Shown: piece after piece, positions 58-44,513 of the stretch
How positions within the stretch are numbered: the stretch's first letter is position 1
Layout: the number at the start of each line of letters is the position of its first letter
DNA from: Pseudoxanthomonas sangjuensis
Lineage (GTDB): Bacteria > Pseudomonadota > Gammaproteobacteria > Xanthomonadales > Xanthomonadaceae
Length of the DNA: 64,000 bases
Direction of reading: 5' to 3'
Assembly (NCBI RefSeq): GCF_010211755.1
Contig: NZ_PDWR01000005.1
Location: 1-64,000, forward strand
Notes under the pieces: generated by a model
Databases searched by the model: none
What the model was told of the DNA's origin: nothing
The model's input: the letters and a program-made list of their open reading frames with translations, nothing else
Program-made: the position numbers and the translations under genes

Positions 58-127
58 GGCGTTATCGGGCGCGCACACCGGGCTCTCGGCGCTTACAGTA
101 GGGGAAAGCAAAGACATAAGGCGTTAG
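58..127 (+). other. Possible 3' ends of upstream attC sites
   Basis: GGCGTTA occurs at 58-64 and again at 120-126. Either could be the right end of an attC belonging to a cassette that starts outside the window. The second (core GTTAGCT at 123-129) sits 23 bases before the GTG start of the first cassette gene and is the likelier cassette boundary. I cannot find a matching left half or a clear stem for either, so a full attC is not shown. Confidence 0.35.
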
Positions 128-145
128 CTCTTCAGGGGAAAACAC

Positions 146-508
146 GTGGGTCCAAAGTCCTATATCTTGGCCGCCGGGGCCACCCTGTCTCTTGCTGCGG
201 GTGCTCTTGCTCAGCATTTCTACCCATACGCGGAGCGCAGTCCGATAGACATCGGCGTTGCCATTCTTGGCGCGATCCTGATTTTCGCTTGGTACCGGCT
301 GGATGCCGCTCAACTGGGGTTTCGCCGTAGACCTTTGTTAAACGTCGCGGTGATCGCCGTCGCCATTCTCGGGTTGCCTTACTATTTCTTCCGTTCCCGC
401 GGATTCAAGCGCGGACTCGCCGCAACCGGCCTGTTCTTGCTAGCCATTTTGTCGTCTGGTGTCTTGACTATTCTAGGTAGTGCCGCCGTTTACGGGCTGC
501 AGAGCTAA
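146..508 (+). CDS. Cassette-borne small membrane protein, unknown function
   Basis: The 120-residue product has about four hydrophobic stretches (roughly residues 4-24, 35-52, 64-83 and 92-115), separated by short Arg/Lys-rich loops. This suggests a polytopic inner-membrane protein. I recognise no family. The GTG start is chosen because AGGGGAA lies a few bases upstream and no ATG fits. The stop codon TAA forms part of the following attC site, as is usual when the cassette gene fills its cassette. Most integron cassette genes encode small proteins of unknown function, and this fits that pattern. Transcription would depend on an upstream cassette promoter outside the window. Confidence 0.7.
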   Translation: MGPKSYILAAGATLSLAAGALAQHFYPYAERSPIDIGVAILGAILIFAWYRLDAAQLGFRRRPLLNVAVIAVAILGLPYYFFRSRGFKRGLAATGLFLLAILSSGVLTILGSAAVYGLQS

Positions 509-562
509 CAATTCATTCAAGCCGAACCCGCTTCGCGGCTCGGCTTAATTCAGGCGTTAGCG
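504..562 (+). other. Integron attC site 1 (complete)
   Basis: The site begins GCTAACAATTCATTCAAGCC, has an imperfect hairpin around CCCGCTTCGCGG, and ends GGCGTTAGCG. It matches the layout of aadA-type attC sites: a left TAAC core, conserved CAATTCATTCAAGCCGA, an extrahelical A in the stem, and a right GTTAG core at 556-560. IntI would cut between G556 and T557, which defines the junction of cassettes 1 and 2. Both core sites are intact, so the site looks able to recombine. Confidence 0.85.
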
Positions 563-565
563 CTC

Positions 566-874
566 ATGACAGCTCGCAATGCATTGCCAAGAGTCTGCCT
601 GGCCGTACTGATTGCGATTGTCCTTGCCGTCATCCTTGCGATTGCGTCCAGTTGGCTTTTGCAATGGAACACGCCGGGCGACCTGCTTTTTGACCAAGGT
701 CTTGTCCAAAGCTTGGCCCTTGGCGTTCTTCCAACGGCAGCCGTCATCGTCAATTTGCTCATCGCCTCTTACAGAGCCGCTGAGAGACATGCTTGGGCGT
801 GGTTAGCTGCCTCTTTAATTATCTGGCCCTTGAGCTTCTGGTACACAATTGTGGAGGCCCGCGGTGAGCGCTAA
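566..874 (+). CDS. Cassette-borne small membrane protein, unknown function
   Basis: The 102-residue product has three hydrophobic segments (about residues 8-33, 46-68 and 75-96) and a charged C-terminal tail. It is probably an inner-membrane protein of unrecognised family. The ATG start lies only four bases after the attC core of the preceding cassette. No clear ribosome-binding site fits in that space, so translation may be weak or leader-dependent. The TAA stop is embedded in the second attC site. Codon use is less GC-biased than in the chromosomal genes to the right, consistent with capture as a cassette. Confidence 0.7.
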   Translation: MTARNALPRVCLAVLIAIVLAVILAIASSWLLQWNTPGDLLFDQGLVQSLALGVLPTAAVIVNLLIASYRAAERHAWAWLAASLIIWPLSFWYTIVEARGER

Positions 875-921
875 CAATTCATTCAAGCCGAACCCGCTTC
901 GCGGGTCGGCTTGATCCAGGC
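870..921 (+). other. Integron attC site 2 (right core lost)
   Basis: It is identical to attC 1 over its first 35 bases and has an even better stem (ACCCGC-TTC-GCGGGT). After CCAGGC, however, the expected GTTAG core is replaced by CCCAGGTAG. Without the G|TT cleavage site the right end should be poorly used or dead. I read this as the decayed terminal attC that fixes the second cassette to the chromosome. Confidence 0.75.
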
Positions 922-1176
922 CCCAGGTAGCGCACCCTTCGCGGCCGGCATCGGCCTCCGGAAGGAGGGGCGCCATGGCCAAGTTCCGGTCTCCCCTCCC
1001 CGTGCGGCGATGGTCGTGCCCGACGGCAGGCGGGAGGCGCCAGGCCGTGCCCGGGGCCACCGGCATGAGACGCCGGTCCGTGTTGGCCGCAACGTGGACT
1101 TTCATTCGTTCCACCTTTGCAAGCCCGCATCCGCGTGACCCGATGAGGGACGACTTTGGGAAGCCGGGAGACGACC
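922..1176. other. Spacer without a convincing gene
   Basis: Between the last attC and the amidohydrolase gene I see no open frame with plausible composition or start. A purine-rich GGGAG at 1166-1170 is the likely ribosome-binding site of the next gene. No strong promoter or terminator is visible. Confidence 0.5.
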
Positions 1177-2097
1177 ATGATCCGTTTCTTGTTTCTGTTC
1201 CTGGGCCTGTCGGCTTTTGCTTCTTTCGCCGGCGCGCAAACCCCCGCCCCGCGCCCCGCGGTAATCGACATGCACGTCCACGGCGCGAACACCACGCCGC
1301 AGCAGGCACGCGAACGCATGGCCGCGCTGAACGTCCGGTACCTGTTCGTGCAAGTCCTGGCGCCGGAGTTGCCCGCCTGGAATGCCGCGTTGGGCGGCGA
1401 CAATTTCCAGCCTTCACTCGGCTTCCCGTGCCCGGGCGGTCGGGCTCCGTTCGTCGACCGCCCGTGCTGGGAGGGCACGTCGGACTTGCCGGACCCCGCT
1501 TGGGTGCGCGAGGAATTGCGCAGCGGCCGGATCAAGGCGTTCGGCGAGCTCGTGCCGCAGTTGTTCGGCATGGCGCCGGGCGACGAGCGCCTTGAACCCT
1601 ATTGGCAGCTCGCCGAGGAATTCGACATCCCCGTTGCCATCCACATGGGACCCGGGCCGCCGGGCGCCGCGTACGGGTCGGGCGCTTCCCCGGCGAAGTT
1701 CCCGGACTTCCGCATGGGCGCCGGGAACCCGCTGCTCCTCGAGGACCTGCTGCTCCGCCACAAGCGCCTGCGCCTGCTCGTGATGCACGCCGGATGGCCC
1801 TATTCGGAGTCCATGATCGCACTCCTCTACGCCCACCCGAACGTGTATGTCGATGTCGGGGCGTTGCAGGCCGGGTTCATGGTGCCGCGGGCGAGCTACT
1901 ACGCTTATTTGCGCAGCCTGGTCGATGCCGGCTTCGCCAAGCGCATCGTGTTCGGCTCCGATTTCCCCAACCAGGTGGAACCGGGCATCGACGCCATCGT
2001 CTCCGCCGAATTCCTCAGCGACGCGCAGAAGTCGGACATCCTTTGCGGCAATGCCACGCGTTTCTTGCGGCTGGACGGATCCACGTGCACGCAGTGA
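1177..2097 (+). CDS. Secreted metal-dependent amidohydrolase (amidohydrolase-2 type)
   Basis: The 306-residue protein starts with a signal peptide (residues 1-20, ending AFASFAGA). It then has the TIM-barrel metal motif DMHVHG (D31, H33, H35), a second His in AIHMG, a third in VMHAGWP and the closing Asp in FGSDFPN. This set is typical of the amidohydrolase-2/2-amino-3-carboxymuconate-semialdehyde-decarboxylase-like family, whose members hydrolyse or decarboxylate small molecules using a bound metal ion. The substrate cannot be told. The ATG at 1177 is preferred over an upstream TTG at 1156 because GGGAG sits at the right distance and the signal peptide then begins at residue 1. No operon partner is evident. 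Confidence 0.75.
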   Translation: MIRFLFLFLGLSAFASFAGAQTPAPRPAVIDMHVHGANTTPQQARERMAALNVRYLFVQVLAPELPAWNAALGGDNFQPSLGFPCPGGRAPFVDRPCWEGTSDLPDPAWVREELRSGRIKAFGELVPQLFGMAPGDERLEPYWQLAEEFDIPVAIHMGPGPPGAAYGSGASPAKFPDFRMGAGNPLLLEDLLLRHKRLRLLVMHAGWPYSESMIALLYAHPNVYVDVGALQAGFMVPRASYYAYLRSLVDAGFAKRIVFGSDFPNQVEPGIDAIVSAEFLSDAQKSDILCGNATRFLRLDGSTCTQ

Positions 2098-2181: not shown

Positions 2182-2805
2182 TCAGTCCAGCGGCAACGGT
2201 GCCTGCAACGGCTCGATGGTGCCCTCGCCGCGCATCACTTTCTTGAACTCGGCGCGGCTGACCGAGACGTAGCGCTCGTTGCCGCCGATCTCGACCTGCG
2301 GCCCGTCCAGCACCGCGCGGCCGCTGTCGTCCACGCGCACGGTCATCGTCGCCTTCTTGCCGCTGTGGCAGATCGTCTTGATCTCCTGCAGCTCGTCGGC
2401 CCAGGCCAGCAGGTACTGGCTGCCCTCGAACAGCTCGCCGCGGAAGTCGGTGCGCAGGCCGTAGCACAGCACCGGGATGCGCAGGCGGTCGACGACCTCG
2501 CTGAGCTGCCACACCTGCGCCTTGCTCAGGAACTGCGCCTCGTCGACCAGCACGCAATCGAGCTTGCCGTGCGCGGCGATGTCGGCTTCGACCCAGCGCT
2601 CCAGGTCGGCCGCGTGGTCGAACGCCGCGCCTTCGGCCTTCAGCCCGATGCGCGAGGCGACCGTGCCGCTGCCGGCGCGGTGGTCCAGCTTCGGCGTCAG
2701 GATCGCCACGCGCATGCCGCGCTCGCGGTAGTTGTGCGCCGACTGCAGCAGCGTGGTGGTCTTGCCGGCGTTCATCGCCGAATAGTAGAAGTAGAGCTTG
2801 GCCAT
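2182..2805 (-). CDS. tdk: Thymidine kinase
   Basis: The 207-residue protein phosphorylates thymidine to dTMP with ATP in the salvage pathway. Residues 9-17 form the P-loop ([10 protein letters not shown]15). VDEAQF carries the catalytic Glu at E89, and the dNTP-binding region [11 protein letters not shown] lies near the C-terminus. Length and motifs match type II thymidine kinases. Three of the four Cys/His zinc ligands of the E. coli lasso domain are not conserved: the C-x-C is CHS (C146, S148), and the later Cys and His are S183 and F187. As I recall, xanthomonad homologues share this change. It is a single gene flanked by unrelated genes. Confidence 0.95.
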
Positions 2806-3678: not shown

Positions 3679-5652
3679 ATGCACTCCCTCAACCCCCCCC
3701 AACGCGCCGCGGTAGCGCATACCGAAGGCCCGCTGCTGGTGCTGGCCGGCGCCGGCAGCGGCAAGACGCGCGTGATCGTCGAGAAGATCGCGCACCTGGT
3801 GCAGTCCGGGCGCTACCCGGCCAAGCGCATCGCCGCGATCACCTTCACCAACAAGGCCGCGCGCGAAATGCGCGAGCGCCTGGCGAAGCGGCTGAAGGGC
3901 GACACCGGCGAAGGCCTGACCATCTGCACTTTCCATGCGCTGGGGCTGAAGTTCCTGCAGACCGAGCACGCCGCCGCGGGACTGAAGCGCGGCTTCTCGA
4001 TCTTCGACGCCGACGATTCGCACGCGCAGCTCAAGGACCTGATGCCGGGCGCGAAGCCGGATTCGATCGAAGCGATCAAGTCGCTGGTTTCGCGCGCGAA
4101 GAACGCCGGGCTGTCGCCGGAGCAGGCGCTGGACGCGGCGCGCACCGCGCGCGAGGTCGAGGCGGCGAAGCTGTACGCGCGCTACCAGGCGCGGCTGACC
4201 ACGTTCAACGCGGTCGACTTCGACGACCTGATCCGGCTGCCGGTGCAGATCCTCGAGGGCCACGAGGAAATCGCCCTGGGCTGGCGCGAGCGCATCGGCT
4301 ACCTGCTGGTCGACGAATGCCAGGACAGCAACGACGCGCAATACCGCCTGCTGAAGGCGCTGACCGGGCCGCGCGGCAACTTCACCTGCGTGGGCGACGA
4401 CGACCAGAGCATCTACGCCTGGCGCGGCGCCAACCCGGAGAATCTTTCGCAGATGGCGAAGGACTACCCGAAGCTGCAGATCGTCAAGCTGGAGCAGAAC
4501 TACCGCTGCAGCAACCGCGTGCTGCGCGCGGCCAACGCGCTGATCGCGCACAACCCGCACGAGCACCTGAAGAAGCTGTGGAGCGACCAGCCCGACGGCG
4601 ACAAGATCCGCGTCTGGGAATGCCGCGACAACGAGCACGAGGCCGAGCGCGTCGCCGCCGAGATCAGCTTCCTGCACACCGCGCGCGACGCGCCGTGGAG
4701 CGAGTTCTGCATCCTGTTCCGCGGCAACCACCAGTCGCGCGCGCTGGAGAAGGCGCTGCAGCTACTGCGCATCCCCTACCACCTGACCGGCGGCACCGCC
4801 TTCCTCGAACGCCAGGAAGTGAAGGACGCGCTGTCGTGGCTGCGGCTGGTCGCCAATCCCGACGACGACGCGGCGTTCCTGCGCGCAGTGCAGTCGCCCA
4901 AGCGCGAGGTCGGCGCGACCTCGCTGGCCAAGCTGGCCGAGATGGCCCAGCACGCGCACCTGCCGATGGCGCGCGCGGCGCAGGCGCACGGCGCGCTGAA
5001 GGCGCTGCCGGCGCGCGCGGCGAACGGGCTGAGCGAGTTCAACGACATCGTCCACGACCTACGCGAGCACGCGGCGAAGCTGACCGCGGCCGATCTGTTG
5101 CGCCGTCTCGCGGAGAAGTCCGGCCTGCTCGCCGACCTGCGCGCGCAGTGCAAGGACGAGGCGACGTTCCAGCGGCGCAAGCAGAACCTCGAGGAACTCG
5201 CCGAGTGGTTCGAAGGCGGGCGCGGCAGCGCCGGCGACCTCGCCGCGCAGCTGGCGCTGCTGTCGCGCAACGACAAGGACGACGGCGGCAACCAGGTGCG
5301 GCTGATGAGCCTGCACGCAGCAAAGGGGCTGGAGTTCCGCTACGTGTTCATCGTCGGCTGCGAGGACGGCACGCTGCCGCACGAGACGGCGATGGAGGAG
5401 GGCTCGCTGGCCGAGGAACGGCGGCTGATGTACGTCGGCATCACCCGCGCCAAGCAAGGGCTGTACCTGAGCTACAGCAAGGCCACGCGCCGCTTCCGCG
5501 AAACCGTGCGACTGATGCCGAGCCGCTTCCTCGACGAACTGCCGCAGAGCGAGTTGCTGCGCGACGGCACCGACCCGGAAGCGGAAGCCGAGCGCCGCAA
5601 AGAGCGCGCCAGCGCCGGCATCGCGGCGATTTCGGCGTTGTTCGACGATTGA
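3679..5652 (+). CDS. rep: ATP-dependent DNA helicase Rep
   Basis: The 657-residue SF1A helicase unwinds DNA 3'-5' and helps replication forks pass obstacles. The N-terminus runs straight into the Q-motif and Walker A (GAGSGKTR, K29). Walker B is LLVDECQD (D212, E213). Motif III (GDDDQSIYAWRGA), motif IV (LEQNYRC) and the C-terminal motifs V-VI (LMSLHAAKGLE, EERRLMYVGITRAK) are all present in order. The length is slightly below E. coli Rep (673). The order 'NPPQRAAV' at the start and the lack of the long UvrD C-terminal tail favour Rep over UvrD. It is monocistronic and read away from the Sel1 gene. Confidence 0.95.
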   Translation: MHSLNPPQRAAVAHTEGPLLVLAGAGSGKTRVIVEKIAHLVQSGRYPAKRIAAITFTNKAAREMRERLAKRLKGDTGEGLTICTFHALGLKFLQTEHAAAGLKRGFSIFDADDSHAQLKDLMPGAKPDSIEAIKSLVSRAKNAGLSPEQALDAARTAREVEAAKLYARYQARLTTFNAVDFDDLIRLPVQILEGHEEIALGWRERIGYLLVDECQDSNDAQYRLLKALTGPRGNFTCVGDDDQSIYAWRGANPENLSQMAKDYPKLQIVKLEQNYRCSNRVLRAANALIAHNPHEHLKKLWSDQPDGDKIRVWECRDNEHEAERVAAEISFLHTARDAPWSEFCILFRGNHQSRALEKALQLLRIPYHLTGGTAFLERQEVKDALSWLRLVANPDDDAAFLRAVQSPKREVGATSLAKLAEMAQHAHLPMARAAQAHGALKALPARAANGLSEFNDIVHDLREHAAKLTAADLLRRLAEKSGLLADLRAQCKDEATFQRRKQNLEELAEWFEGGRGSAGDLAAQLALLSRNDKDDGGNQVRLMSLHAAKGLEFRYVFIVGCEDGTLPHETAMEEGSLAEERRLMYVGITRAKQGLYLSYSKATRRFRETVRLMPSRFLDELPQSELLRDGTDPEAEAERRKERASAGIAAISALFDD

Positions 5653-5735: not shown

Positions 5736-5872
5736 GGTTGCAGGTCGGCGTCACGCCCCCGACGGCTTTCCTGCCCCCGAAAGCGGATGGAAATCAATGC
5801 ATTGCATGACGGCGTCCTGAATTCCGAAGGGTTTGCGTTGGCCAAGATGAACCCCTTGTTCGGAGACTCGTC

Positions 5873-6430
5873 ATGAATAGGGCATCGCTTTGGATGACTG
5901 TTGTTTCGGGCACGACGCTGGCGCTTTCGTTTGCTGCGCACGCCGGCGACAAGGACGCCAGGATCGCCCGCGCGATGAGCGCGGGACCGGCGCAGATCGC
6001 CGCCAAGGCAAGGATCATGGAGCCCGACGGTACGGTGCTGCGGGAGGGATCGAATGGCTGGACCTGCATGCCGAGCATGGGCCCGGGCATGGATATTCCG
6101 CTATGCAACGACGCGACCTGGATGGCGTTCATGCAGGCGTTCGCGGAGAAGAAAGCGCCGAACCCCACCAGCGTCGGGATTGGCTACATGTTCGCCGGCG
6201 ACATGCCGGTCAACAACGACGACCCGTTCGACACCACCCGGGACCCGGGCGAAACCTGGGTAACCGAAGGGCCGCACATCATGGTGATCGTTCCGAACGC
6301 GGAATCCACGCTCAAGGACATGACCAGCGACCCCAATGCCGGTGGCCCGTACGTGATGTTCAAGAATACCCCGTACGCGCACATCATGATCCCGACCGGC
6401 CCGCGGGCAACGCCCGGGGAAAACCAGTAA
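5873..6430 (+). CDS. Secreted protein of unknown function
   Basis: The 185-residue protein has a signal peptide (residues 1-24, ending SFAAHA|GD). The mature part contains two Cys (in GWTCMPSMG and PLCNDAT) that could form a periplasmic disulfide. It also has conserved-looking stretches ending in GPYVMFKNTPYAHIMIPTG. It is rich in Met, Pro and Gly. I recognise no characterised family; related uncharacterised secreted proteins occur in many proteobacteria. The ATG start follows GGAGACTCGTC. It stands alone, and a large hairpin 26 bases after the stop probably ends its transcript. Confidence 0.65.
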   Translation: MNRASLWMTVVSGTTLALSFAAHAGDKDARIARAMSAGPAQIAAKARIMEPDGTVLREGSNGWTCMPSMGPGMDIPLCNDATWMAFMQAFAEKKAPNPTSVGIGYMFAGDMPVNNDDPFDTTRDPGETWVTEGPHIMVIVPNAESTLKDMTSDPNAGGPYVMFKNTPYAHIMIPTGPRATPGENQ

Positions 6431-44390: not shown

Positions 44391-44513
44391 AGCACCCGAT
44401 GTGGCAAGCGACTCAGGGGCGCCAGCGCTGGACTTGGAACAGGGGCCAGCCATGCGCACGTCGGGGACGCCCGGGGGCCGGTAGTCGGGGGACTGCCGGC
44501 CCCTTTCTTTTTT
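44391..44513 (+). ncRNA. Candidate sigma-54-dependent small RNA
   Basis: About 123 bases lie between a sigma-54-like promoter and a perfect intrinsic terminator, with no reading frame of note. The interior has a CCAGCGCTGG palindrome (44422-44431) and four GGA trinucleotides (44430, 44436, 44465, 44490). GGA-rich RNAs can bind CsrA/RsmA, but only one of these lies in a clear loop, so the target is open. It is divergent from mnmG. I do not recognise it as a named family. Confidence 0.55.
44474..44513 (+). terminator. Intrinsic terminator of the small-RNA candidate
   Basis: GGGGCCGGTAGTC (44474-44486) pairs over 13 positions with GACTGCCGGCCCC (44491-44503), with one U-G wobble and a GGGG loop, followed by TTTCTTTTTT. 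It faces rightward, yet no plus-strand gene precedes it, which is why a non-coding transcript is inferred. Confidence 0.88.

Follow-up and report, generated by a model that had tools for sequence, protein, structure and literature searches.

The DNA examined here (the window) is bases 1–64000 of contig C55 of Pseudoxanthomonas sangjuensis, a genome of 76 contigs and 3.29 Mb, and it carries at its left end the end of an integron cassette array. Window base 1 is the contig end, and bases 1–127 recur unchanged at the ends of contigs C31 and C44, as expected where a repeat halts the assembler. An IS110-type insertion sequence (IS) contributes its left end, bases 1–120 on the minus strand, identified from the end common to C31 and C44, from comparison with the ends of multi-copy elements in relatives and from the attC half that adjoins it. 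The transposase side of the element lies beyond the contig, and its terminus sits within an attC site of the array. Of this third, split attC (attC0) only the R' box GCGTTAG remains at 121–127 (plus strand). There follow, all on the plus strand, cassette 1 (124–556) with a gene for 120 amino acids (146–508), attC1 with an intact GTTAG core (503–562), the cassette 2 gene for 102 amino acids (566–874) and the terminal site attC2 (868–930), the R' core of which is destroyed (CCCAGGTAG at 922–930). Integrons recombine at the G/TT point of the attC core, and the limits of cassette 1 were set by this rule.

The attC sites were located with a covariance model trained on ten sites, eight from this genome and two from relatives. 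Over the 64-kb window it returned attC1 at 503–562 (84.7 bits, E 1.7e-19), itself a training member, and attC2 at 873–928 (61.4 bits, E 2.9e-13), which was outside the training set; down to E 0.5 there was nothing more in the window except a mirror match of attC1 on the opposite strand (E 0.034). A core-blind matrix recovered the same two sites and gave 0 matches in five versions of the window shuffled by mononucleotide, and neither method found an attC past 930 within it. Both sites belong to the common attC type of the genus, and the R''/L''/L'/R' architecture is present after each cassette gene, attC2 being without its R'. The core reads GGCGTTAGCG in attC1 and GGCCCCAGGTAGCG in attC2. When the bottom strand was folded as single-stranded DNA, attC1 formed the outer R''/R' stem (fold z −4.3); attC2 kept the central hairpin and had no outer stem. 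The initial annotation, made from the sequence alone, had described two attC sites bracketing the 102-residue gene, the first with GTTAG and the second having lost it, an array ending at about 921 and a last cassette fixed in place. All of this agrees with the searches, the dead attC2 locking the right side. At least two attC sites with no adjoining intI define a cluster of attC sites lacking integron-integrases (CALIN), and the window is such a case.

Loss of the core at the last site appears to be general in this group. In a survey of 20 regions from 12 relatives every site was scored by one matrix, leaving out strands on which just one site was present, sites interrupted by the IS, and solitary sites whose neighbour was over 4 kb away and after which more than 2 kb of sequence followed. 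A site was called terminal when it was the last of a cluster of at least two and more than 2 kb of sequence lay beyond, and intact when the core stretch contained GTT and then A, G or T. An intact core was found in 0 of 5 terminal and 211 of 218 non-terminal sites of the relatives, attC2 of the window being excluded (Fisher p 1.8e-7). Distal sites of the relatives read GCTAG, GTCGG and GCCAAG. In the genome of the window, altered attC sites also occur on C33, C34, C13 and, in the middle, C7. The pattern is probably best explained by a ratchet: excision could remove a last cassette with a live attC but would leave in place one behind a dead attC, and arrays would come to end at a dead site. The dead terminal attC is a simple, countable marker of the array end, with a testable cause.

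At the left end of the window, the insertion sequence matches the Rfam family sX15 (RF02234). The match covers window bases 1–95 on the plus strand (64.1 bits, cut-off 55) and is broken off at the contig end, so that the 3' part of the family is represented. There are five sX15 matches in this genome, and the family occurs in 12 of 100 relatives and 62 of 297 family genomes, this genome being included in both counts. Among 29 loci, 19 were testable, having at least 500 bases beyond the sX15 5' end, and in 18 of these an IS110 transposase or its remnant lay on the strand opposite to sX15 (10 were too short; the exception is L088). A second set of 25 loci, five of them too short, gave 20 of 20. 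The element copies of this genome are known from ends and fragments; the copy in G020, a member of the same genus, which contains the transposase domains PF01548 and PF02371, is also present with its flank in Pseudoxanthomonas japonensis DSM 17109 (L157). A short derivative of the IS lies within an attC at C44:169.88–170.27 kb; it retains both ends and the sX15 region but has lost the greater part of the transposase gene.

On the transposase strand, the target loop of the RNA contains TAACGCCT and TAATTCAG; these match CTAACGC-CT-GAATTAA, the stretch of attC that the element interrupts. In the window the two arms of this loop are at 33–40 (CTGAATTA) and 57–64 (AGGCGTTA). The donor loop, ACAGTTG and GATAAG, matches the element's own ends around CT. 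The guides vary with the target: in 4 of 4 element types for which both flanks were available, the combined score of the two arms was highest on the cognate target, although one single arm tied, and for one guide arm across 16 elements the observed guide–target sum was reached in 0 of 20000 permutations. The attC-type target-loop pattern was found in 41 stretches (42 places) among the genome contigs searched, in Xanthomonadaceae genera, Dyella, a Rhodanobacteraceae bin, Azomonas and a bin labelled Sphingomonadales. In 40 of the 42 places GTTA or GTTG lies within eight bases of the left end, and a transposase match is present in 22 of the 24 places with at least 390 bases of room. The sequence match and the covariation of guide and target suggest that sX15 is the complement of a bridge RNA which would direct its element to attC. 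Folding could not separate the strands, which came out near equal (−71.8 vs −71.2), so the choice of strand follows solely from the polarity of IS621, by which the Rfam sX15 strand would be opposite to the guide strand. Sister IS110 elements of G010, G013 and G093 (L083, L092, L089) have guides matching other palindrome-like repeats, not attC. A plasmid collection gave no match when queried with the sX15 RNA; the transposase matched 2488 records, the 15 listed being at about 46% identity and 8 records in all at 60–80%.

The chromosomal position of the array is given by the gene at 2182–2805 (minus strand), which is presumably tdk (thymidine kinase). It is a conserved anchor gene, and stretches of 10–14 kb around it were compared in 19 relatives. 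These contain no attC, no intI, neither cassette gene and no counterpart of the amidohydrolase gene that lies directly outside the array (1156–2097, plus strand; Pfam Amidohydro_2, 114 bits); the comparison with relatives proposed in the initial annotation came out in favour of its cassette-array reading. The amidohydrolase gene was considered as a third cassette and rejected, as no attC follows it. In 18 of the 19 relatives the convergent neighbour of tdk is gene X, an open frame of 949 codons that encodes kinase and TPR domains, at a gap of 16–74 bases in 17 and of 966 bases in one. In the present genome gene X is on contig C21, with its stop about 30 bases before an attI module (described below). 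Since gene X adjoins this module, joining C21 to C55 brings back the ancestral gene order, interrupted by one inserted block. Most simply, gene X and tdk were separated by the insertion of this single block, which would run from attI to the amidohydrolase gene, and we infer that the two contigs are joined via a full IS copy absent from the assembly. The right end of the IS is found on four contig ends and the left end on three, each set identical over 127 bases.

The attI module is about 200 bases long and is present in five copies, 92–100% identical to the query copy, each ahead of a first cassette. It contains a promoter-like box, TTGAAC-N17-GATACT, and the arrangement CACCCC-loop-GGGGTCTATTAGGCGTTAG. 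The sequence after the module, that is, the first cassette, is different in all five copies. One copy lies beside the one intact integron integrase of the genome (TIGR02249, 485 bits, cut-off 265) on C30, where intI adjoins a gene that is presumably cca. A second, on C2, has a truncated intI, and those on C21, on C24 and at the end of C7 have no intI match. An integrase and further attC sites had been anticipated in the initial annotation, and besides this integrase there are 22 more attC-like BLAST matches elsewhere in the genome. The C2 copy (1807–2180) comprises a second attI and the start of an intI whose reading frame is truncated after about 220 bases, and leads an array of its own; also on C2, at 859–948 (L020), is an attC with a longer structured loop insertion, and a 90-base site of equal length occurs in a relative (L210:13788–13877). 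The module at the C7 end (L030, about 3690–3990) is flanked by roughly the last 60 bases of gene X, and therefore seems to have been duplicated from the C21 place by a route other than IntI. The C13 end (L031, about 5740–6210), a comEC-like locus, carries a divergent attI-like hairpin and cassettes and has no intI match.

Modules separated from the integrase are also found in relatives. An attI-module match was obtained in 12 of 100 genomes, this one included, all of the same genus, and the 11 others hold 18 places. Five of these adjoin intI, on G016:C8, G021:C1, G023:C4 and G030:C3 by coordinates and on G031:C149 by similarity. The other 13 lie away from intI by contig or distance, a criterion that is weak in draft genomes and especially in G005; in G014, a single contig, the satellite attI is 1.5 Mb from intI. 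In the ten satellite regions fetched of the thirteen (L192–L200, L207) intI was found in none, and at least three attC sites in nine. Seven satellites (G001, G014, G016, G019, G021, G023 and G028) share an upstream sensor-kinase gene, 91–99% alike where the coding strand was compared, and have a different first cassette in each. Among the seven, pairwise identity averages 0.82 across the final 30 bases of attI, 0.52–0.63 in four upstream blocks and 0.53 just downstream. A conserved dock with changing cargo is the trace that active capture would leave. In 8 of 10 fetched intI regions intI stands beside a comEC-like gene (Pfam Competence). As the comEC-like locus at the C13 end has no intI here, loss or relocation of intI is a likely source of satellites. 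In G031:C73 (L207) an attI module lies by cca without an intI match, in the place that holds intI in the genome of the window.

We arrive at a joint reading, to which we assign a probability of roughly 0.72, in which C55 holds the locked distal end of an array, an IS has entered attC0 by means of its bridge RNA, and the array belongs to a satellite integron on C21 served in trans. With attC0 split and the R' core of attC2 lost, the last two cassettes would no longer be excisable by attC × attC recombination, the IS in attC0 locking cassette 1 on the left. The sole recombination-competent site left would be attC1, which could still receive cassettes. It was probably the bridge RNA of the IS itself that directed the element to attC0, both target guides matching the attC that flanks the insertion point. 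The array most likely begins at the attI and promoter of C21, beside gene X, which is the neighbour of tdk in relatives; this attI is placed by gene order. Given this join, the array would be without an integrase of its own, as the C21 module directly follows gene X and the intI matches are on other contigs, and it would be served in trans by the C30 IntI. For the genus, it is fairly probable that the integron is multi-site, with one IntI and several attI–promoter platforms at long-fixed loci, where cassettes turn over, and that the arrays are parasitised and frozen by an IS110 lineage whose bridge RNA (sX15) fits attC.

All four contigs with a right end of the IS finish in the same IS sequence and so could join C55, whose array might then be the distal part of the intI-bearing C30 integron, or of the C2 or C7 arrays. 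We regard this as unlikely, since it is the C21 attI that lies beside gene X, which borders tdk in 18 of 19 relatives, and the C21–C55 join that restores the ancestral order. It is rather improbable that the locus is a plain CALIN, with cassettes at a secondary site without their own attI: such clusters are reported at several fixed loci in about 50% of Xanthomonas genomes (PMC12444791), but the partner contig C21 has an attI and a promoter-like box ahead of the first cassette. The terminal site itself might not be decayed at all, being the normal junction of an attC with the old attI flank formed when the first cassette entered. By the recombination rule the bases 3' of the last R' G come from that flank and need not be GTTRRRY, and an empty satellite attI with the flank CCCCAGGTAGCG would be expected. 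The same rule preserves the G, followed at attI here by TTAGG or similar, whereas attC2 has lost the G too and gained extra bases; with the altered distal cores of the relatives, this makes a normal junction quite improbable. An ordinary chromosomal locus with attC-like or other non-integron repeats arisen by chance was rejected as practically negligible, given the E values, the empty shuffles and the absence of attC at this locus from all 19 relatives.

Several observations weigh against the joint reading and its parts. Just five terminal sites could be judged; among them the final site of L192 looks like an IS scar and all three sites of the L199 array are altered. A solitary intact site in L193, 6.5 kb past the array, was removed by the selection rule. 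Nine of the 19 testable sX15 loci are within-genome copies (five in G010, four in G013), and the cognate target was strictly the best in only 7 of 16 elements. At the tdk locus, G018 has no gene X beside tdk, one relative has the 966-base gap, and the amidohydrolase gene is likewise new and unexplained. The C21–IS–C55 join is absent from the assembly, and other pairings fit the sequence. The satellite of G019 has mostly intact attC sites in a genome without an intI above cut-off.

A close parallel among integrons is the sedentary chromosomal integron of Xanthomonas at the ilvD locus (PMC12444791), which likewise has one intI and an array of small uncharacterised cassettes, in a related host genus. 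Here, by contrast, intI is by cca and several attI–promoter modules lie elsewhere; attI at arrays without intI is not mentioned in the portion of that paper accessible to us. CALINs are also attC arrays without a nearby intI and are stated there to be mobilisable in trans, but the present arrays have their own conserved attI and a promoter-like box before the first cassette. Cassette ends derived from attI are described for mobile integrons in PMC12901181. The element shares with IS621 and other IS110 members (PMC11208160) a non-coding RNA in a long left end, two internal loops, a CT core, a target loop 5' of the donor loop on the transposase strand and left guides that pair with the bottom strand. 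It differs in that its target loop fits attC and its RNA is complementary to a family that Rfam lists as a small RNA (sRNA) of the Xanthomonadaceae. RNA-guided entry into attC is known for IS1111 elements, among them ISKpn4 and ISPst6 (PMC11187229; such elements are also named in PMC11089894); their RNA is downstream of the transposase gene, whereas the present element has it upstream, like the IS110 type. The one paper that came up for the sX15 family has it as a table entry only (PMC6337395). In the searchable literature, which leaves most subscription papers outside, we found neither a link between sX15 and IS110, for which earlier recognition is possible, nor satellite attI–promoter platforms. 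The usual picture of an integron has one integrase beside one docking site. If the present picture is true, orphan cassette arrays would be live, separately expressed platforms and more than debris, and integrase-less docking sites would go unrecognised in searches for intI or attC alone. The sX15 result in turn proposes what a catalogued RNA family may do, and it would add a natural RNA-guided inserter whose targets are integron sites.

The two cassette genes have a G+C content of 57.3% and 54.4%, against 70.0% for the window. Their products have about three (cassette 1) and at least two (cassette 2) hydrophobic stretches, neither reached the cut-off of any Pfam or NCBIfam family, and tblastn over 33 fetched regions gave no match. 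The suggestion that they may be undescribed cassette products holds in part. Cassette 1 has protein matches in 17 of 297 family genomes, this one included. The closest (68%, G013) has no visible attC, and cassette 1 may therefore have arisen from a chromosomal gene that became a cassette; counter to this, a 42% relative in G298 has attC-like sites on both sides and is about 1 kb from an sX15 element. Cassette 2 has matches in 13 of the 297, again including this genome, with 27–34% identity elsewhere. By a home-made general attC detector, which is weak and serves as a hint only, attC-like sites lie near 4 of 11 relatives of cassette 2 examined, on both sides in L235. In G071 the relative of cassette 2 comes immediately after an sX15 element.

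To the right of attC2 the gene order is amidohydrolase, tdk, a short minus-strand gene and a helicase-like gene, presumably rep. Further into the window, at 44393–44509, there is an Rfam match to asX1 (91.4 bits), another sRNA of the Xanthomonadaceae.
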